Source: Chthoniobacterales bacterium | GTDB lineage: Bacteria > Verrucomicrobiota > Verrucomicrobiia > Chthoniobacterales > JAATET01 | NCBI GenBank assembly: GCA_036569045.1 | Contig: DATCRI010000028.1 | Coordinates: forward strand, 1 to 64,000 | Direction: 5' to 3' | Length of the DNA stretch: 64,000 nt | Shown here: piece after piece, positions 49,019 to 61,651 of the stretch | How positions within the stretch are numbered: the stretch's first letter is position 1 | How the letters are laid out: every line of letters begins with the position of its first letter | Notes under the pieces: generated by a model | The model's database searches: none | Told to the model about the DNA's origin: nothing | Seen by the model: only the letters and a program-made list of their open reading frames with translations | Position numbers and translations under genes: made by a program

Positions 49019-49124
49019 GGAATCAGCGAAGTTTCGCCGAGGGTAGGCCCCGGCGCGGGGCTTGGCGAGCGGGGATCGCCGCCCGCGGGCTGGACAATCG
49101 GGGAGCCGGGTTTACGCTTTTCGT

Positions 49125-49871
49125 GTGACCCCCCTGCTCGGCGAATTCGTCGGCACGATGCTGTTGATCATTCTCGGCGACGGCGTGGTGGCCAACGTGC
49201 TGCTTGCGAAGTCCAAGGGCCAGAATGGCGGCTGGATGGTGATCGCGACCGGCTGGGGGCTGGCGGTTTTCTTCGCCGTGGCGGTGGTGGCGCGGGTGAG
49301 CGGCGCGCACCTGAATCCCGCGGTGAGCGTGGGCCTCGCGACGGCGGGGCTGTTCCCATGGGCCGACGTGCCGGGCTACGTCGTCGCGCAGATGCTCGGC
49401 GCCTTCGCCGGGGCCGTGGTCGTGTGGCTCGCGTATCTGCCGCACTGGCGCGTGACCGACGATGCGGAGCTCAAGCGCGCCATTTTCTGCACCGCGCCGG
49501 CGATCCGCAGCGCGCCCGCGAATTTCCTCTGCGAGGTGATCGGGACGTTCGTGCTCGTGTTCGGCGCGCTCGCGATGAAGGGCGCCTTCGAGCCGGCGCC
49601 CCTGAGCGGCGCGGCGGTGCCGATGAACCTCGGCGCGCTGGGGGCCATCCCGATCGCGCTGCTCGTGCTGGCGATCGGCCTCTCTCTCGGCGGCCCGACC
49701 GGCTACGCGATCAATCCCGCCCGCGACCTCGGCCCCCGCCTCGCGCACGCGCTCCTGCCCATCCCCGGCAAGGCCGGCAGCGACTGGGGCTACGCCGCGA
49801 TCCCCGTCGTCGCCCCGCTCGTGGGTGGCGCGCTCGCCGCCCTCGCCTACGTTGCCCTCGGAAAGTTTTAA
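49125..49871 (+). CDS. glpF: Glycerol facilitator (MIP/aquaporin family)
   Basis: About 248 aa from GTG at 49125. Six hydrophobic segments with both half-helix motifs: [12 protein letters not shown] and [13 protein letters not shown]. The Asp after the second NPA (NPARD) is the glycerol-facilitator hallmark that separates GlpF from water-only channels. It sits in the inner membrane and heads glpK-glpD, 13 nt upstream of glpK. Confidence 0.93.
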
Positions 49872-49884
49872 CGCCCCGCCTCCC

Positions 49885-51378
49885 ATGAAATACCTCCTCG
49901 CCCTCGACCAGGGCACCACCAGTTCCCGCGCCATCGTTTACGACGCCACGTGCACGCCCGTCGCCTCTGCGCAGAAGGAATTCACGCAGCATTTTCCGCA
50001 GCCCGGCTGGGTGGAGCACGACGCGAGCGAGATCTGGCACGGCGTGGTCGAGACCGCGCGCGACGCGGTGTCGCAGGCCGGCATTGCGATCGAGGACATC
50101 GCCGCGCTCGGCATCACGAACCAGCGGGAAACCGTCGTCGTGTGGGATCGCGCCACGGCCCAGCCCATCGCGCCGGCCATCGTCTGGCAGGACCGCCGCA
50201 CCTCCGACTACATGACCGCGCTGCGCGAGGCCGGGAAGGAGCCGCTCATCCAGCAGAAGACCGGCCTCGTGCTCGACTCGTATTTCTCCGCGAGCAAGCT
50301 CCACTGGCTGCTCCGCGACCGGCCCGACGCCCGCGCCCGCGCCGCGGCGGGCGAACTCGCCGCCGGCACGATCGACTCGTGGCTCATCTACAAGCTCACC
50401 GGCGGCCGTGAGCACGTGACGGACGTGACCAACGCCTGCCGCACGATGCTGATGAACATCCACACCGGCGACTGGGACGACGAACTGCTCGCGCTCTTCG
50501 ACATCCCGCGCGCGGTGCTGCCGCGCATCGTCGCGAATGGCGTGCAGCTCGGCGAATCCATCCCCGGCTTCCTCTCGAAACCCGTCCCGGTCTTTGGCGG
50601 CGTCGGCGACCAGCAGTCCGCCCTCTTCGGCCAGCTCTGCGCAAAGCCCGGCCTCGTGAAATGCACCTACGGCACGGGCTGCTTCATGCTGGAATTCACC
50701 GGCGGCGAACCCGTCGCCAGCCGGAATCGCCTGCTCACCACCGTCGCATGGAAGCTCGGCGACGCGCCGATGCAATACGCGATGGAGGGCAGCGTCTTCG
50801 TCGGCGGGGCGGCCATCCAGTGGCTGCGCGACGGCCTCGGGATCATTCGCTCGGCGCCCGAGGTGAACGACCTTGCCGCCCGCGTGGCGGACTCCGGCGG
50901 CGTGACGCTCGTGCCGGCCTTCACCGGCATGGGCGCGCCGTATTGGGACGGCTCCGCCCGCGGCGCGCTGCTCGGCATCACCCGCGGCACCACCGCCGCC
51001 CACCTCGCCCGCGCGACGCTCGAGGGCATCGCGTTTCAGGTCACCGATCTGCTCGTGGCGATGGAGAAGGATTCCGGGCGGAAGATCTCCACGCTGCGCG
51101 TCGATGGCGGGGCCGCGGCGAGTGATCTCCTCATGCAAATCCAGACCGACCTGCTCGGCGTGCCCATCGAGCGACCGAAGAACGTCGAGACCACCGCGCT
51201 CGGCGCCGCGATGATGGCCGGCCTCGGCGCGGGCGTCTGGAGCAGCCTCGACGAGCTCTCGAAGGTGCGCGAGGTGGAGAAGAAATTCTCACCCGTCACC
51301 ACCGCGAAGCAGCGCCGCGAGCGCCTCAAAACCTGGCGCCGCGCCGTGAAGCGCGCACAGAACTGGATCGTGGAATAA
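49885..51378 (+). CDS. glpK: Glycerol kinase
   Basis: 497 aa, phosphorylates glycerol to glycerol-3-P. FGGY kinase motifs: [16 protein letters not shown] (phosphate 1), [46 protein letters not shown] and the ATP-side [19 protein letters not shown] at 49885 matches the family N-terminus [12 protein letters not shown]. glpD follows after 4 nt, glpF precedes. Together they form a glycerol utilisation operon. Confidence 0.97.
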
Positions 51379-51382
51379 TCTT

Positions 51383-52954
51383 ATGAACCGCAACGAAATG
51401 CTGGAGCGCATCCGCTCCGAGAAGGAATGGGACGTCGTGATCATTGGCGGAGGCGCCACCGGCCTCGGCGTCGCGGTCGACGCCGCCACGCGCGGCTATC
51501 GCACGCTGCTCGTCGAGGCGCACGATTTCGCGAAGGCCACGTCCAGCCGCAGCACGAAGCTCGTGCACGGCGGCGTCCGCTACCTCGAGCAGGGCGACAT
51601 CCCGCTCGTGCTCGAGGCGCTGCGCGAGCGCGGCCTGCTCCACCGCAACGCGCCCCACATCGTTCACCACCTCTCGTTCATCGTGCCGCGCTACAAATGG
51701 TGGGAGGGCCCGTTCTTCGGCATCGGCCTGAAGATGTATGACCTCCTCGCCGGCAAGCTGAACCTCGAGAAATCCCGCCTGCTCAGCCGCGAGGAAACCA
51801 TCGCGCGCATCCCGAACATCGAGACGGAGAACCTGCTCGGCGGCGTGGAGTATTTCGACGGGCAGTTCGACGACGCGCGCCTCGCGATCACCCTCGCGCA
51901 GACCGCCGCCGACCACGGCGCCACCCTGCTGAACTACGTGAGAGCCACCGGCCTCACGAAGACGGACAACCTCATCACCGGCCTCACCGCCGAGGACGTC
52001 GAGACGGGCGAGGCCTTCACCCTGCGCGCGAAGGTCGTCATCAACGCGACGGGAATCTTCGCGGACACGATCCGCCACATGGACGAGCCGCAGGGGCCCG
52101 CCGTCGTGCAGCCCAGCCAGGGCGTGCACCTCGTCTTCGACCGCAGTTTCCTGCAGGGCGACTCGGCCATCATGGTGCCGCACACCGACGACGGGCGCGT
52201 GCTCTTCGTCATCCCATGGCACGACCGCGTGCTCGTCGGCACGACCGATACACCGATGCCGCACGCCGACGTCGAGCCTCGCGCGCTCGACGAGGAGATC
52301 GGCTTCATCCTGCGCAACGCCTCGCGTTACCTCGCCCGCGATCCCCGGCGCAGCGACATCCAGAGCATCTTTGCCGGCCAGCGTCCGCTCGTGCGGCCGC
52401 CGCGCTCCGACGGCTCCAGCACGAAGCAAATCTCGCGCAATCACGAGGTCCTCATCTCCGACGCCGGCCTCGTCACGATCGTCGGCGGCAAATGGACGAC
52501 CTACCGCAAGATGGCCGAGGACGCGATGGACCACGCCACGCTCATCGGCGAGCTGCCCGAGCGCAAATGCGTGACCGAGACGCTCCAGCTCCACGCATGG
52601 ACCAGTCCACACGCGCCCGAGGTCGACGAAGCCCTCGACGTCTACGGCAGCGACGCCCAGCACATCGCGCGGTTGATCCAGGCCGACGCCACGCTCGCCG
52701 AGCCGATCGCCACCGGGCTCCCCTACCAGCGCGCCCACGTCCTCTGGGCCGCGCGGCACGAGCTCGCCCGCACGATCGAGGACGTCCTCGCCCGCCGGCT
52801 GCGCGTTCTCTTCCTCGATGCCCAGGCCGCCCTCGACGCCGCTCCGGTGGTGGCCGAGCTGCTCGCCTTCGAGCTCGGGCACGACGCCGATTGGATCGCC
52901 GCACAGCTTGCCGACTTCCGCAAACTTGCCGGCGGCTATCTCGCGCCGAAGTGA
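51383..52954 (+). CDS. glpD: Aerobic glycerol-3-phosphate dehydrogenase
   Basis: 523 aa FAD enzyme oxidising glycerol-3-P to dihydroxyacetone phosphate, passing electrons to the quinone pool at the membrane. N-terminal FAD motif VVIIGGGATGLGVAVDAATRG, KATSSRSTKLVHGGVRYLEQ, and substrate-side GRVLFVIPWHDRVLVGTTDT and TIVGGKWTTYRKMAEDAMD. C-terminal helical domain present. Directly after glpK. Confidence 0.96.
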   Translation: MNRNEMLERIRSEKEWDVVIIGGGATGLGVAVDAATRGYRTLLVEAHDFAKATSSRSTKLVHGGVRYLEQGDIPLVLEALRERGLLHRNAPHIVHHLSFIVPRYKWWEGPFFGIGLKMYDLLAGKLNLEKSRLLSREETIARIPNIETENLLGGVEYFDGQFDDARLAITLAQTAADHGATLLNYVRATGLTKTDNLITGLTAEDVETGEAFTLRAKVVINATGIFADTIRHMDEPQGPAVVQPSQGVHLVFDRSFLQGDSAIMVPHTDDGRVLFVIPWHDRVLVGTTDTPMPHADVEPRALDEEIGFILRNASRYLARDPRRSDIQSIFAGQRPLVRPPRSDGSSTKQISRNHEVLISDAGLVTIVGGKWTTYRKMAEDAMDHATLIGELPERKCVTETLQLHAWTSPHAPEVDEALDVYGSDAQHIARLIQADATLAEPIATGLPYQRAHVLWAARHELARTIEDVLARRLRVLFLDAQAALDAAPVVAELLAFELGHDADWIAAQLADFRKLAGGYLAPK

Positions 52955-52967
52955 TAGATTGTCCGCC

Positions 52968-54422
52968 ATGCTCCCGCTCAAAGATCCCACGCTCCTCAAG
53001 ACGCTCGCCTGCCTTTGCGGCGAATGGCGGGCTGCCCGTTCCGGCGCCACGATCGCGGTCACGAATCCGGCGACCGGCGAAGTGATCGCCACCGTGCCGG
53101 AGTTGAGCGGCGAGGAAGCCCACGAGGCCATTGCCTTCGCCGCCGAGCGCATGAAGGAGTGGCAGAAACGCACCGTGCTCGAGCGCTCGAGGATCCTGCG
53201 CCGCTGGTTCGAGCTGCTCGTGGAGAACACCGACGACCTCGCGCTGATCCTGACGAGCGAGCAGGGCAAGCCGCTGGCCGAGGCGAAGGGCGAGATCGCC
53301 TACGGCGCGGCCTACATCGAGTGGTTCGCCGAAGAGGCGAAGCGCATCGGCGGCGACCTCATCCCGCCGCCTTCGAACGACCGCCGCATCCTCGTTCTTC
53401 GCCAGCCCGTGGGCGTCTGCGCCGCGATCACGCCGTGGAATTTTCCGAACGCGATGCTCACCCGCAAGGCCGCGCCAGCGCTCGCCGCGGGTTGCGCAAT
53501 GGTCTGCAAGCCCGCCTCGCAGACCCCGCTTTCCGCGCTCGCCCTGGCCGAGCTCGGGGAACGCGCCGGCCTGCCACCGGGGCTTTTCAGCGTGCTCACC
53601 GGCCCCGCCTCCGCGATCGGCGAGGCCTTCACCTCCAGCCCGATCGTGCGCAAGCTCACCTTCACCGGCTCGACCGGCGTCGGCAAGAAGCTCATGGCCG
53701 CGTGCGCGGGCACCGTGAAGAAAGTGACGATGGAACTTGGGGGCAACGCGCCGTTCATCGTCTTCGACGACGCCGATCTCGACGCCGCCGTCGAGGGCGC
53801 GATGGCCTCGAAATACCGCAACACCGGCCAGACCTGCGTGTGCGTGAACCGCCTGCTCGTGCAGTCCGGCATCTACGACGCCTTCGCCGCGAAACTCGTC
53901 GCCGCGGTGCGAAATCTGAAGGTCGGCAACGGACTGGAACCCGGCGTCGAGCAGGGCCCGCTCATCGAGGAAATGGCCGTCGAGAAGGTCGAGGCGCTCG
54001 TCGCGGATGCCCTTGGCAAGGGCGCGCGGGTGCTCACCGGCGGCCGGCGGCACGCCCTCGGCGCGACCTACTACGAGCCCACCGTTCTCGCTGAGGCCAC
54101 GCCGGCGATGGATCTCGCGGAGGAGGAAATCTTCGGCCCGGTCGCACCGCTCTTCCGCTTCGAGACCGAGGAGGAAGCCGTCGCCCTCGCGAACGACACG
54201 AACGTCGGCCTCGCGAGCTACTTCTACACGCGCGACCTCGCCCGCATCTGGCGCGTCGCCGAGGCGCTGGAATACGGCATGGCCGGCGTGAACACGGGCC
54301 TCATCTCGAACGCGATGGCCCCCTTCGGCGGCGTGAAGGAAAGCGGCCTCGGCCGCGAAGGCTCGAAATACGGCATCGAGGACTACCTCGTCCTCAAATA
54401 CGTTTGCCTTGCCGGGCTGTGA
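52968..54422 (+). CDS. NAD(P)-dependent aldehyde dehydrogenase (GabD-like)
   Basis: 484 aa ALDH. Nucleotide-binding CAAITPWNFPNAMLTRKAAP, glycine loop FTGSTGVGKKLM, catalytic Glu in TMELGGNAPFIVFDDADLDA and catalytic Cys in NTGQTCVCVNRLLVQ. The N-terminal EWRAARSGATIAVTNPATGE fits succinate-semialdehyde dehydrogenase-like enzymes. Placed 13 nt after glpD, so it may oxidise glyceraldehyde or another aldehyde in glycerol metabolism (inference). ATG at 52968 chosen; longer frame overlaps glpD. Confidence 0.92.
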   Translation: MLPLKDPTLLKTLACLCGEWRAARSGATIAVTNPATGEVIATVPELSGEEAHEAIAFAAERMKEWQKRTVLERSRILRRWFELLVENTDDLALILTSEQGKPLAEAKGEIAYGAAYIEWFAEEAKRIGGDLIPPPSNDRRILVLRQPVGVCAAITPWNFPNAMLTRKAAPALAAGCAMVCKPASQTPLSALALAELGERAGLPPGLFSVLTGPASAIGEAFTSSPIVRKLTFTGSTGVGKKLMAACAGTVKKVTMELGGNAPFIVFDDADLDAAVEGAMASKYRNTGQTCVCVNRLLVQSGIYDAFAAKLVAAVRNLKVGNGLEPGVEQGPLIEEMAVEKVEALVADALGKGARVLTGGRRHALGATYYEPTVLAEATPAMDLAEEEIFGPVAPLFRFETEEEAVALANDTNVGLASYFYTRDLARIWRVAEALEYGMAGVNTGLISNAMAPFGGVKESGLGREGSKYGIEDYLVLKYVCLAGL

Positions 54423-54473: not shown

Positions 54474-55184
54474 ATGCTTTATTGCTGTAACGGGGCATTC
54501 AAAAGCGGTTCGACCTGGCTTTACATCATCGTTTGCAACCTTGTCGGTCGCGGCGAAGCCCTGCCCTCCCGGTTTGAAAACCCGAAACGACTCAATCGGG
54601 GCCTTCAACGGGAGCTTCTCCTGCCTTTTCTCGCGGAAGTCGACCTGACCGCCGCGCATTACGTCATCAAATCGCACTACGCGGACGCCGAGGCCCGCGA
54701 GGCCCTTACCGCGAATCCGAATGCCCGCGTCTGCGGCGTCTCCCGCGATCTCAAGGACGTCGTCGTCTCGGCCTACTTCCACTACAAGCGGCTCGGCGAA
54801 ACCGCGGCGCCCTTCGAGGAGTTCTTCTGGGAACGCGGGCTCCGCGTCGTCAAGCGCGTGCATGCCTACAACGAGCTCTGGAGCGCGCCGCATCCGCAGA
54901 TTTACATGACGCGCTACGAGGCCCTGCACGAGGACTTCGCCGCAGAAGTCGGCCGGCTTTGCGAATTTCTCGGCCTCTCGCCCGATCCCGCGCTCATCGA
55001 AGCCGCCCGCGCGAACAGCAGCTTCAAGCAGCAACAGGCCAAGGAGGTGCAGAAGAAGGGCGAATCCGAGCACAAGTTCTTCCGCTCGGGCAAGGCCAGG
55101 GACTGGGTGAACCACCTCACTCCCGAGATGGCCGCCGCCGTGGACGCCATCCAGTTCGGCCACGGAGCGCCCGCCAGTTCCTGA
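54474..55184 (+). CDS. Sulfotransferase domain protein
   Basis: 236 aa. 5'-phosphosulfate-binding loop GAFKSGSTWLYI, 3'-phosphate site SRDLKDVVVSAYFHYKRLG, and the late FFRSGKARDWVNHLT matching the RKGxxGDW element of PAPS-dependent sulfotransferases. It would transfer sulfate from PAPS to a glycan or small acceptor, unknown. It follows the aldehyde dehydrogenase by 51 nt and ends 12 nt from the convergent exonuclease-ligase gene. Confidence 0.9.
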   Translation: MLYCCNGAFKSGSTWLYIIVCNLVGRGEALPSRFENPKRLNRGLQRELLLPFLAEVDLTAAHYVIKSHYADAEAREALTANPNARVCGVSRDLKDVVVSAYFHYKRLGETAAPFEEFFWERGLRVVKRVHAYNELWSAPHPQIYMTRYEALHEDFAAEVGRLCEFLGLSPDPALIEAARANSSFKQQQAKEVQKKGESEHKFFRSGKARDWVNHLTPEMAAAVDAIQFGHGAPASS

Positions 55185-55196
55185 CTCGATTCCGCG

Positions 55197-57872
55197 TCAG
55201 TCGCCGCTCGCTTCGGGCGGCAGCAGCCGGCGCGCGCTGGCCACGGTATCGATCTCCGCGACCGTCTTGTCGGCGCGAATGCGGTGGATGCGAGGGAAGC
55301 GCAGCGCGAGTCCGCTCGCGTGCCGCGCACTCGGCTGGATCGAGTCGAAGGCGACCTCCAGCACGACCTCCGGGCGCACGTCGTAAACGCGACCCCGCTG
55401 GCGAACGATCATGCCGAGAAATCGCTCCGTGAACGCCGCGATTTCCGCATCGGTCAGGCCGCTGTAGGCCTTGCCGATGTTCAGCAATTCGCCCGTCACC
55501 TCGTCGCGCACGGCGAAGGTGTAGTCGCTCAGCACGCCCTTGCGCCTGCCGTGCCCGTATTCCACTGAGGTCACCACCACGTCGAGCGTCGCAAAGGCTT
55601 TCTTGAGCTTCACCCACGCGAGGCCGCGACGCCCCGGCGCATAGCGGCTGCCCGGATCCTTCACGATGAGTCCCTCGTTGTTTCGGCCTCGCGCGACGAC
55701 GAAGGCGATCTCGACCTCCTCCGCGGATTGCGCCCGGGTCAGCGGCAGCGTCCGCAACGGCGCCGCCAGCGGAAGTGCCTCCAGTATTTTTCGGCGTTCC
55801 GCCAGGGGCTCGCGGAAAACCGATCTCCCGTTCATCCACAACACGTCGAACGCGGTGAACGTCACCGGCACCTCCGTCTCCATGAACAGGTCGCGCTCGA
55901 CGCGGCCGAGCCGCTTCTGCAGCTCGAAGAAGCTCAGCGGCCTGCCGTCACGCCACGCGACAATCTCGCCATCGAGCACGAATTCCACGCCGGTCCGCAC
56001 GGCCGCCTCGGCAATCTCGGGAAACGTCTTCGTGATGGGCCGCAGGTCGCGAGAATAGATCGCCGCGTCGCCACCCGCGCAGTGCAGTTGCGCGCGGATG
56101 CCATCGAGCTTGTCCTCGACCCACACTTCGGTCGCGCCACCCGCGGTCATGCGATCCCACACGCTCTCCTCGTCCGGCTCGGGACTCGCGAGCATGCACT
56201 TCACGGGACGAAACGGCTGCAGCGCGATGCCGACGAGCGCGTCGCGTCGCGCCCGGAGAGCCGTTTCCCCGAGATCGCCGAGAAGCATGTGCGCCTCGCG
56301 GACGACTTCCGGCTCGCGGGAAAAAGCGGCCGCCACGGCATCCTCGACGAGGCCTTCCTTCAGGCCGATGCGCAGGTCGCCGGTCAGGATTTTCACGAGC
56401 GTCTTGGCATCCTGCGCGGAGAGCCGACGCAAGCGCTCCTCCAGCAACGCACCCTTCGCAAGCGGCCCCCGCGCCTGCTCGATCTGCGTGAAGAACGCGT
56501 GCACGGCGGCAAGCGGGAGGGCTTCCCCGCCGACGTTCGCGGCCAGCGCCTCCTCGGCCGTGAGGCCGGCGTCGTTATGGCGGCGCGAGATGGCCTGCAG
56601 GTCGGAAGGCGACAGACCCGAGGCCGCAAGTAACGCGCGCCGAATGATTGCGCCGCCGAGCTGCAGCGGCCGCGCCGCGGCCTGTGGAAAGGCACGCCCA
56701 GTCAGCCATGTCGCGGCCAGCGGGAGCTCCTCATCATCGAGCCGGGCGAGATAATCCGCGAGGAGCTGCACCTTCACGAGCTTGCCGGTAGCGGCGGCGA
56801 TCTTTTCGCAAACGGCGGAGAAGCCCGAGAACCCATGGTCGGCGGCGACCGGGCCGAGAACTTCGCGCGGCACGGCGACGGTCGTGGCCGGTGCTCCGAG
56901 CGCAAACTCGAGCTGATCCGCCGCGGTGAGCGCCCACGCCTCGATCCCCCGCGCGCGCAGGTCGCGAGCGAACTCCCGGGCGAAGCCATGCAGCGTGAGC
57001 ACGCGCCTCGGTCGCACCATTTCGACGTAACGCAGCAGGTCGGGATAGTCCGCGTGGTCGGAGAGCGGAAAGGCGGCGTCGGCCTGGTAGCGATGCGCGG
57101 CGCCTCCGTCCATCGCCCAGCCGGTCATCACCGCGACACGCCGGTTCCTGATCTTCCGCAGCATCGCGGAGCCGGCCACGCTCGGCGGACAAATGAGCAC
57201 ATGCTCGCCGGCGGCCCCGGCCACGTATTTCTCGTAGGGCGGAAATTTCACGCCCATCGATTCGTAGACCTGCGACATGCTCCAGACGGAGCCGTGCAGC
57301 CGGATCGGCAGGCCCGCCGCCGCCACGGCGAAGAGAATCTCCTGCGCCTTGCCGAGCGAGTAGCCGAGCAGCACCGGCGTCGCCCCGTCCTCGCGGGCCT
57401 CGAGGCAGAATTTCACGACATCCGCGACGACCTTCTCAGCCGGCGGAAATGCGTAGCGCGGCAAGCCGAACGTCGTCTCCATGATGAGCGTGTCCGCGGG
57501 CGCGGCCTCCGCAGGCTCGGCGCTGAGACCGGGGCGGAGCTTGAAGTCGCCCGTATAGAGCAGCGTTCCGGCGTCCGTCGTGACGAGGCATTGCGCGGAG
57601 CCGAGGACGTGCCCGGCCGGCAGCAGCTCGATGTCGAAACTGCGGATCCGCCGCCGCTCGCGATACGCCAGAACGTGCTCGCGGCCCGCCGGATCGCCCA
57701 TTCGGGCCTGCATCAGCCGCGAGGTTGCCTCCGTGAGAATCGCCTCCCGGTGGCGACCGGTGTGATCGCTGTGGGCATGGGAAACGAAGGCCAGCTCGCG
57801 CGGACCGCGGGGGTCGAGCCAGAGGTGCTCCACAGGAAGCCGGACCCCCCATTCGTAACGCACATCGATCAT
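55197..57872 (-). CDS. Fusion of beta-CASP exonuclease and ATP-dependent DNA ligase
   Basis: 891 aa. Residues 1-335 are the 'ligase-associated DNA exonuclease' type of metallo-beta-lactamase/beta-CASP nuclease: metal ligands in SHAHSDH (H32, H34, D36, H37), VLGSAQCLV, YTGDFKLRPG and SDHADY (271-276). Residues about 345-885 are an ATP-dependent DNA ligase: N-terminal domain, catalytic Lys588 in EDKLDGIR, and GLIVKDPGSRYAPGRRG. These two are usually separate genes next to an Lhr-type helicase and a pde-like gene; here they are joined and no helicase is adjacent. Probable DNA end processing and repair. Confidence 0.93.
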   Translation of the reverse strand: MIDVRYEWGVRLPVEHLWLDPRGPRELAFVSHAHSDHTGRHREAILTEATSRLMQARMGDPAGREHVLAYRERRRIRSFDIELLPAGHVLGSAQCLVTTDAGTLLYTGDFKLRPGLSAEPAEAAPADTLIMETTFGLPRYAFPPAEKVVADVVKFCLEAREDGATPVLLGYSLGKAQEILFAVAAAGLPIRLHGSVWSMSQVYESMGVKFPPYEKYVAGAAGEHVLICPPSVAGSAMLRKIRNRRVAVMTGWAMDGGAAHRYQADAAFPLSDHADYPDLLRYVEMVRPRRVLTLHGFAREFARDLRARGIEAWALTAADQLEFALGAPATTVAVPREVLGPVAADHGFSGFSAVCEKIAAATGKLVKVQLLADYLARLDDEELPLAATWLTGRAFPQAAARPLQLGGAIIRRALLAASGLSPSDLQAISRRHNDAGLTAEEALAANVGGEALPLAAVHAFFTQIEQARGPLAKGALLEERLRRLSAQDAKTLVKILTGDLRIGLKEGLVEDAVAAAFSREPEVVREAHMLLGDLGETALRARRDALVGIALQPFRPVKCMLASPEPDEESVWDRMTAGGATEVWVEDKLDGIRAQLHCAGGDAAIYSRDLRPITKTFPEIAEAAVRTGVEFVLDGEIVAWRDGRPLSFFELQKRLGRVERDLFMETEVPVTFTAFDVLWMNGRSVFREPLAERRKILEALPLAAPLRTLPLTRAQSAEEVEIAFVVARGRNNEGLIVKDPGSRYAPGRRGLAWVKLKKAFATLDVVVTSVEYGHGRRKGVLSDYTFAVRDEVTGELLNIGKAYSGLTDAEIAAFTERFLGMIVRQRGRVYDVRPEVVLEVAFDSIQPSARHASGLALRFPRIHRIRADKTVAEIDTVASARRLLPPEASGD

Positions 57873-57933
57873 TCCTCAAAGAATACGCACGCCAGCGGTT
57901 GCGGCGATGGCGGGATTTCTGCGAAAGTCCCGG

Positions 57934-59844
57934 ATGCTTTCCATTTCCGGCGTGACCAAATCGTTCGCGGGTCGCGTGCTCTTCGAAAACGCGTCCGTGC
58001 AAGTGAACCGCGGCGACCGCATCGGCCTCGTCGGCCCGAACGGCGCCGGCAAGACCACGCTTTTCTCGCTCATTCTCAAGCTCGACGAGCCCGACGAGGG
58101 CTCCGTTTCCCTGCAACGCGGCACCTCGCTCGGCTTCCTTCCGCAGGAAAGCGCCCCCGCCGGCGACGAGACCGTGCTCGACCTCGCCACCGGTCGCAGC
58201 GCGACCCACGCCGAGATCGATCCCGAGGATCCCGACGCCGATTTCTCCGAGGACTACGAGGCCATGAGCCGCGAGCCGAAGGCCAAGCGCATCCTCGCCG
58301 GCCTCGGCTTCCGCGAGACCGACTACGACAAGCCCGCGCGCACGTTCAGCGGCGGCTGGGTGATGCGCGCCCATCTCGCGCGGCTGCTCGTGCTCGAGCC
58401 GGACCTCCTGATGCTCGACGAACCGACGAACCACCTCGACCTCGAGGCGCTGCGCTGGTTCCAGGAATACCTGCGCGCCTATCCGGGTGCATTCTTCGTG
58501 ATCTCGCACGACCGGGAATTCCTCAACACGCTCTGCAACACGATCATCGAGATCCGCCACAAGCGCCTCTGGCGCTACACCGGCAACTACGACAAATACC
58601 TCGAGCAGCGCGCCGCGCAGCAGGAACAGCACCGGCTTGCCTACGAGAACCAGCAGCGCGAGATCGCGCATCTCCAGGAGTTCATCGACCGCTTTCGCGC
58701 AAAGGCCTCGAAGGCCGCGCAGGCGCAGGAACGCATCAAGCAGCTTGCCCGCATGGTGCGCATCGAGCCGCCCGAGGCCGACGCGCCGGTCGTCCATTTC
58801 TCGTTCCCGCAGCCCGAGCGCTCCGGCCAGCACGTGATGCGGCTGCGCGGCATCCACCAGGCCTACGGCGAGGAGCCGAACCTGAAGTGGGTCTATCGCG
58901 GCCTCGATTTCGAGATCGAGCGCGACCAGCGCCTCGTGCTCGTCGGTCCGAACGGCGCCGGCAAATCGACGCTGCTCAAGATCCTCGCTGGCATCGTGCC
59001 CTTCCAGCAGGGCGAGCGCGTGCCCGGCCACAACGTCCGCGTCGGCTACTTCGCGCAGTATCGCACCGAGATGCTCGACGAGAAGCGCACCGTGCTCGCC
59101 GAGGCGCAGGCCCACGCGAAGAATGCGAACGAGGAATACGTCCGCACCGTGCTCGGCGCGTTTCTGTTCCGCGGCGACGCCGTGTTCAAGAACGTCGGCG
59201 TGCTCAGCGGCGGCGAGAAGAGCCGCCTCGCGCTCGTGAAGCTCCTGCTCGATCCGCCGAATCTCCTCCTGATGGACGAGCCCACGACGCACCTCGACAT
59301 CCCGAGCATCGACGCCCTCATCGGCGCGCTGCGCTCCTTCACCGGCACGCTCGTCTTCATCAGCCACGACGTCTATTTCATCCGCGCGCTCTCCGAGCAG
59401 GTGCTCCACGTCGAGGCCGGCCGCACGACGTTCTACCCCGGCAACTACCAGTATTTCCTCGATAAGACCTCGGCCACATCCGAGCGCGAAGCGCTGGTCT
59501 CCGGCGCGCGTGCCGAGGAAACCGTGAAGGCCGCCGCGCCCGAGCGGCAACGCATCTTCAAGACGAAGGAACAAAAGCGCGCCGAGGCCGAGGCCCGCAA
59601 TGCCCTCGCGAAGGCCCGTCGCGAAGCGGCTGCGAAGGTCGAGCGCCTCGAGACCGAAGTCGTCGCCCTCGAAAAGCGCCAGCAGGAACTCACCACCGCC
59701 CTCGAGGCGCCCGAAACCTACGCCGACCAGGGCAAGGCCTTCCGCATCAATCGCGAACTCGCCGAAGTCGCCGACAAGATCGAGCGCGCCACCGCCGAGT
59801 GGGAAGCCGCCGCCGCTTTGCTGCCCGCGCAAACGACCGAATAA
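57934..59844 (+). CDS. ABC-F family ATPase
   Basis: 636 aa with two ABC domains: first Walker A GPNGAGKTTLF, signature FSGGWVMRAHLARLL, Walker B LLMLDEPTNHLDLEALRW; second GPNGAGKSTLLK, LSGGEKSRLALVKLL and LLLMDEPTTHLD. A long Ala/Arg/Glu-rich C-terminal coiled coil follows. ABC-F proteins act on ribosomes (EttA/Uup-like). ATG at 57934 starts the conserved MLSISGVTKSF; an in-frame ATG at 57907 is a possible earlier start. The next ABC-F begins 1 nt after the stop. Confidence 0.94.
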   Translation: MLSISGVTKSFAGRVLFENASVQVNRGDRIGLVGPNGAGKTTLFSLILKLDEPDEGSVSLQRGTSLGFLPQESAPAGDETVLDLATGRSATHAEIDPEDPDADFSEDYEAMSREPKAKRILAGLGFRETDYDKPARTFSGGWVMRAHLARLLVLEPDLLMLDEPTNHLDLEALRWFQEYLRAYPGAFFVISHDREFLNTLCNTIIEIRHKRLWRYTGNYDKYLEQRAAQQEQHRLAYENQQREIAHLQEFIDRFRAKASKAAQAQERIKQLARMVRIEPPEADAPVVHFSFPQPERSGQHVMRLRGIHQAYGEEPNLKWVYRGLDFEIERDQRLVLVGPNGAGKSTLLKILAGIVPFQQGERVPGHNVRVGYFAQYRTEMLDEKRTVLAEAQAHAKNANEEYVRTVLGAFLFRGDAVFKNVGVLSGGEKSRLALVKLLLDPPNLLLMDEPTTHLDIPSIDALIGALRSFTGTLVFISHDVYFIRALSEQVLHVEAGRTTFYPGNYQYFLDKTSATSEREALVSGARAEETVKAAAPERQRIFKTKEQKRAEAEARNALAKARREAAAKVERLETEVVALEKRQQELTTALEAPETYADQGKAFRINRELAEVADKIERATAEWEAAAALLPAQTTE

Positions 59845-59845
59845 C

Positions 59846-61647
<1,802 letters not shown>

Positions 61648-61651
<4 letters not shown>

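Follow-up and report, generated by a model that had tools for sequence, protein, structure and literature searches.

An exonuclease–DNA ligase fusion of a Chthoniobacterales bacterium and the distribution of its ligase half among related genomes

When an end-trimming nuclease and a DNA ligase are found in one polypeptide, must the two steps be coupled? The question is raised by a gene in the window, i.e., the whole stretch of 64,000 nucleotides analysed here, which a preliminary description had read as a beta-CASP exonuclease joined to an ATP-dependent DNA ligase. The fusion is of a known kind and already in print. One report presents 13 exonuclease-ligase fusions from Dry Valley metagenomes and credits Ejaz and Shuman (2018) with an earlier one in Opitutus terrae; nick sealing with ATP was shown there for the purified ligase half of a Dry Valley protein, whose nuclease half proved insoluble, and attempts to make the entire fusion failed (PMC10140301). 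The same report describes the biological role and the target damage of the repair cluster as unknown (PMC10140301). Compared by these descriptions, the O. terrae (OTER_RS15935) and Dry Valley fusions have the same order of parts as the window protein (RMMBL nuclease, DNA_ligase_A_N, A_M, A_C). The Dry Valley fusions also lie away from the helicase cluster, as the window fusion does. The expressed Dry Valley protein has approximately 959 amino acids against 891 for the window protein; the O. terrae gene, in contrast, is described as being inside the cluster (PMC10140301). No further report of the fusion or of its loss was recognised in the literature searched, which consisted of titles and the starts of abstracts, subscription papers being mostly outside reach. 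What is new here is the distribution of fusions, exonuclease-only proteins and decayed intermediates across the class.

The gene occupies positions 55197–57872 on the minus strand, as do all parts given below, and is a single open reading frame of 891 codons with an ATG start and no internal stops, its terminal stop lying inside these coordinates. The metallo-beta-lactamase/beta-CASP/RMMBL exonuclease half (residues 1–325; 56898–57872) was matched by TIGR04122, the model for ligase-associated exonucleases, over residues 9–316 (1e-69) and by the Pfam model RMMBL over residues 269–313. It is followed by a linker (residues 326–345; 56838–56897) of 20 amino acids, the range across proteins with both the exonuclease and the ligase DNA-binding domain (DBD) being 16–71. 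The remainder is a ligase composed of an N-terminal DBD (residues 346–520; 56313–56837; DNA_ligase_A_N, PF04675, 348–514), a nucleotidyltransferase (NTase) domain (residues 555–762; 55587–56210; A_M, PF01068, 560–757) and an OB-fold domain (residues 772–884; 55221–55559; A_C, PF04679, 777–869). All four Pfam matches exceed their gathering scores, and several ATP-ligase models cover residues 351–884 approximately, the best at 1e-102. The profile search of both domains and the linker, which had been suggested earlier, bears out the reading of two enzymes in one protein, with the N-terminal MBL/RMMBL nuclease and the C-terminal three-domain ATP ligase in one frame as in the published fusions. A single-sequence structure prediction of the window protein gave a mean pLDDT of 35.6 and was discarded. 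The gene is adjoined by an open reading frame on the plus strand (54474–55184) with a sulfotransferase domain (PF00685, 107 bits).

Both motifs named in the preliminary description were found, as HAHSDH (residues 32–37; 57762–57779) and as the adenylation motif EDKLDG (residues 586–591; 56100–56117), which contains the catalytic Lys588. By alignment, the window protein has the nuclease residues H32, H34, D36, H37, H88, D109, E132, H273 and H295 and the ligase residues K588, D590, G591, R608, E636, E733, K755 and K757, and these are near-invariant across 55 aligned fusions. The four residues of HxHxDH were conserved in 53 of the 55, the remaining two being gapped at the site; K588 was present in 54 (one Gln), H88 in 53 (one Asn, one gap) and H273 in 54 (one Arg), and the motif C residue, His295 in the window protein, was His in all 55. 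By the usual roles of these residues, the sequence contains what is expected of an active nuclease (HxHxDH, His88, Asp109, Glu132, His273, His295) and of an active ligase (the adenylation lysine and the motif residues). On comparison with G003, the one other genome of the same genus found with the fusion (76% identity), dN/dS was 0.14 for the exonuclease, 0.21 for the DBD, 0.14 for the NTase domain and 0.13 for the OB domain. Both halves are under purifying selection and are maintained; the linker evolves quickly (0.55 over 18 codons). The frame is intact in G003, and the expectation that no stop or frameshift separates the domains in other strains held to this extent; a stop does occur in other genera, where the entire ligase half is gone, and the window gene is unaffected. 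The fusion is real, and it appears to work.

Its two halves belong to a sub-family of their own. The TIGR04122 score of 234.9 bits is below the equivalog cut-off of 325, as are those of three other fusions (220.8–231.2) and of one exonuclease-only protein (198.3), whereas two separate cluster exonucleases scored 447.5 and 484 bits, above the cut-off. The ligase half scored 288.9 bits against TIGR04120 (cisplatin damage response ligase; equivalog cut-off 400), compared with 275.3–321.4 for three other fusions and with 594.6 and 613.9 for two cluster ligases encoded separately; at 258.1 bits it does belong to the ATP-dependent DNA ligase superfamily of TIGR00574 (dnl1; cut-off 217.8). Because both halves score under the curated cut-offs of the classical exonuclease and ligase, they are regarded as a parallel sub-family, and small trees placed the cluster's separate enzymes, with full support, in a clade that excludes the fused proteins. 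That the fusion arose simply by joining the two genes of the classical cluster was rejected on these scores and this clade. The nearest solved kin of the exonuclease half are the archaeal aCPSF1/FttA and SNM1A, an enzyme of DNA cross-link repair, at similar E-values (1e-11 to 1e-12 approximately). For the ligase half, 3gde, which we take to be an archaeal ligase, came first (4e-85), the others being free-standing ATP ligases. When genome contigs were scanned for close relatives, one distant ligase came up and nothing else.

In the classical lig/exo/lhr-core/mpe (pdeM) cluster, the exonuclease and ligase are separate neighbours of an Lhr-Core helicase and a phosphoesterase, and canonical clusters of this kind were seen in other genomes, as had been stated beforehand. 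It had also been noted that neither partner lies near the fusion, and none was found on the window's contig (C28). Searches of the whole genome located both as an adjacent pair on contig C6: the helicase (TIGR04121, 1063.6 bits, cut-off 850) at C6:48500-50890 and, directly adjoining it, PdeM (TIGR04123, 185 bits, cut-off 150) at C6:50914-51519. The genome has by sequence the same four activities as the classical cluster, but they do not form a four-gene cluster; the exonuclease and ligase of the latter are separate and of other sub-families, with WKWDG as motif I, whereas the window protein has DKLDG and is encoded at a different place. In G003 the fusion and the helicase/PdeM pair are on one contig, 16 kb apart, and both blocks align with the window genome. 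The fusion was found directly beside the helicase and PdeM, in runs of three genes, in seven of the 38 helicase-bearing fusion genomes (G070, G078, G129, G139, G150, G177, G235) and within 4 kb of the helicase in G223; in the remaining ones it is farther away or on another contig. Scores of Lhr-Core helicases in the class fall into two tiers, of approximately 1000 bits or more and of approximately 330–700 bits, and both tiers occur beside the fusion in some genomes.

In the class, the helicase was present in 38 of 68 fusion genomes and six of 63 exonuclease-only genomes, weak kin (G053, G192, G219, G250; 225–250 bits) having been dropped beforehand; the corresponding counts were 36/68 and 6/63 for PdeM and 35/68 and 2/63 for Ku. 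When relatedness was controlled, eight independent pairs were left on supported branches and the co-occurrence was not significant (median p 0.5 to 0.625), and a link of the fusion to end joining by Ku is left open, since the raw counts are strong but do not survive this control. At the thresholds used, 29 of the 68 fusion genomes are without both helicase and PdeM, and 20 are without helicase, PdeM and Ku; the fusion can therefore be kept without all three. In the window genome itself, Ku and another ATP-ligase match lie approximately 1 kb apart (G000:C55:31657-33652), so that it probably also has an end-joining locus on contig C55.

The distribution of the fusion was studied in a class sample of 286 genomes, which was searched with the whole protein at 1e-30. 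Among the 152 matching genomes there were 68 with the fusion, 63 with the exonuclease only, four with truncated forms (two with exonuclease and DBD, two with exonuclease, DBD and a dead NTase domain), five with separate pairs and 12 that were unclassified, their match rows being partial or beyond those listed. Classification was done by hand from the match rows, with a check of the DNA for a subset, and the fusions include two cut by contig ends (G033, G124) and one whose start is cut (G026). In a phylum sample, 42 of 240 genomes matched at 1e-60; two of these belong to other classes, and their matches are confined to the ligase part. Within the genus of the window genome, a search of G002 found no fusion. 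In G001, which is without it, the blocks matching window positions 57886–61650 and 49083–54418 are only 47 bases apart, and the fusion and the adjoining sulfotransferase frame are therefore absent together. G001 is 84% complete, yet its empty site is direct evidence of absence.

Exonuclease-only genomes are scattered inside the fusion tree. In an exonuclease tree of 114 rows, which includes the window sequence twice, the fusion label must change 17 times, with supported branches forcing no fewer than 10 of these changes; in a bootstrap tree of 48 rows, picked after the larger tree had been seen, it must change 13 times, at least 10 of them forced, and a single clade of fusions is rejected (AU p 8e-120). 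Exonuclease-only G174 and G268 stand beside the fusions G124 and G245 in one genus, G200 and G267 stand beside the fusions G161 and G196 in the tree, and G035, of genus g16, sits among G055, G042 and G027. Comparison of G035 with G055 shows that the ligase half has dropped out in situ: nucleotide identity is 82% in the exonuclease and 90.5% downstream, and the distance between the two is approximately 1.7 kb in G055 and 0.1 kb in G035. Decayed intermediates were also found, namely G264 and G234 (758–760 amino acids), which are without the OB domain and have no catalytic lysine (EDRYDG, EELHDG), and G183 and G248, with the exonuclease and DBD only, the DBD passing the Pfam threshold in G248 and failing it in G183. 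The forms in which the exonuclease is fused to such a pseudo-ligase, kept as a domain with neither OB fold nor catalytic lysine, are encoded at loci L055 (4320–6599) and L056 (4577–6850). The forms with exonuclease and ligase DBD only, proteins of 619 and 604 amino acids, are encoded at loci L063 (4151–6007) and L064 (2337–4148), and both genomes have the helicase and PdeM.

Whether exonuclease-only genomes hold such a ligase elsewhere was examined in 54 of the 63 with the ligase half alone at 1e-8, the other nine having been searched with the whole protein only; there was no match in 52, and in the other two the match lies within approximately 1 kb of Ku. Since the exonuclease half stands alone in many relatives and no such ligase was found elsewhere in their genomes, the exonuclease need not be coupled to a ligase. 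In 59 fusions, the exonuclease and ligase trees are congruent (Spearman 0.74, the highest value under permutation being 0.25); they have 29 of 56 splits in common, with no conflict between supported branches. The tree evidence fits a single fusion event after which the ligase was lost repeatedly, parsimony alone being directionless. Of the exonuclease-only proteins, 42 of 45 end at most seven residues from the domain end, which is cleaner than expected of random deletions, so that some of these genes may be old or replaced rather than truncations. The exonuclease appears to be the part that is retained and the ligase a dispensable module, which weakens the case for an obligate hand-off.

It could be argued instead that an ancestral pair of neighbouring exonuclease and ligase genes was fused several times independently. 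The rejection of a single fusion clade, in the 48-row subset chosen post hoc, and the clean ends of the exonuclease-only proteins would suit this, as would the separate neighbours of the canonical clusters and those, in the opposite order, on two haloarchaeal plasmids. The ligase sub-family was, however, free-standing in none of the 140 classified genomes (152 matching, 286 searched), the trees of the two halves do not conflict on supported branches, half-decayed forms exist, and in G035 the ligase half is absent in place, with matching sequence downstream; several fusions are accordingly considered rather unlikely. It is hardly credible that two neighbouring genes were joined here by faulty assembly: the genome is a draft of 91 contigs, but the fusion recurs in independent assemblies, in 68 of the 286 class genomes including the single-contig G133, G223, G227 and G256, and selection on either half is purifying. 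An assembly chimera was rejected. On balance, we lean towards an ancestral two-headed enzyme that would have lost its ligase half on many occasions in this one class; what survives would be a solitary exonuclease, an exonuclease plus DBD, or a form with a dead ligase lacking the OB domain. The exonuclease would then be an autonomous repair enzyme, able to work without an ATP ligase dedicated to it, and the contribution of the ligase half would be a separable step or a DNA-gripping role.

The substrate of the nuclease half may also be questioned. It might act on RNA, or on the RNA of RNA:DNA hybrids such as R-loops and RNA-ended strands, after which the ligase would seal the remaining DNA nick, and the protein would serve to clear hybrids instead of trimming DNA ends. 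We take the His at motif C, invariant in the fusions, to be typical of RNA-acting beta-CASP enzymes, and aCPSF1/FttA stands as near as SNM1A among the solved kin. The Lhr of M. smegmatis is reported to prefer 3'-tailed RNA:DNA hybrids, according to a title in the references of PMC8301817. The same His is found, however, in the separate exonucleases of the DNA-repair cluster, the fused partner is a DNA ligase, and the NCBIfam name, by annotation and not by assay, is that of a DNA damage response exonuclease; action on RNA is thus given a low probability, and trimming of DNA ends is preferred.

Other systems offer partial parallels. In LigD of bacterial NHEJ, an end-processing module is likewise fused to an ATP-dependent ligase, as described in PMC10140301. 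The window protein differs in having no polymerase or LigD_N domain in the Pfam search, and the Ku of its genome lies near the other ligase match on contig C55. On plasmids of the haloarchaea Halocatena marina and Haladaptatus caseinilyticus, adjacent genes encode a ligase and an RMMBL nuclease of like kinds, but as separate genes, ligase first, and at 30–33% identity. In these loci (L143, 3995–6740; L144, 3971–6808), the ATP ligase is directly followed by the RMMBL-type nuclease, one of which is annotated as an mRNA 3'-end processing factor. Among plasmids, 613 of 72,556 records matched and 15 cover 80% of the query in one place; of the ten matches listed, seven name ligase and nuclease, one ligase alone and two no feature, so that a plasmid-borne fusion may exist. 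Among phages, 36 of 50,697 records matched, none covering 80% of the query; the best ten of the 36 match the ligase part only, and no fusion was seen among the matches listed.

The window protein is likely a bifunctional enzyme for cleaning and sealing DNA ends, partnered in trans with the helicase and PdeM, built on the exonuclease as its core, with the ligase as an appended, repeatedly lost module. Nucleotides that are damaged or unmatched would be stripped from an end or a flap by the metal-dependent beta-CASP nuclease at the N-terminus. The nick left behind would be closed by the C-terminal ligase, which would carry AMP on Lys588 and be held to the DNA by its DNA-binding domain. The tether would raise the local concentration of ligase where the nuclease has acted, and a direct hand-off from trimming to sealing, as proposed in the preliminary description, is plausible. 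The probable partners of the fusion, acting in trans, are the Lhr-Core helicase and the PdeM nuclease, whose genes are paired elsewhere in the genome. Relatives with and without the ligase half, together with those carrying dead or partial ligases, are natural controls for the coupling of trimming and sealing, and a comparison of their nucleases and damage sensitivities would tell whether trimming must be coupled to sealing.
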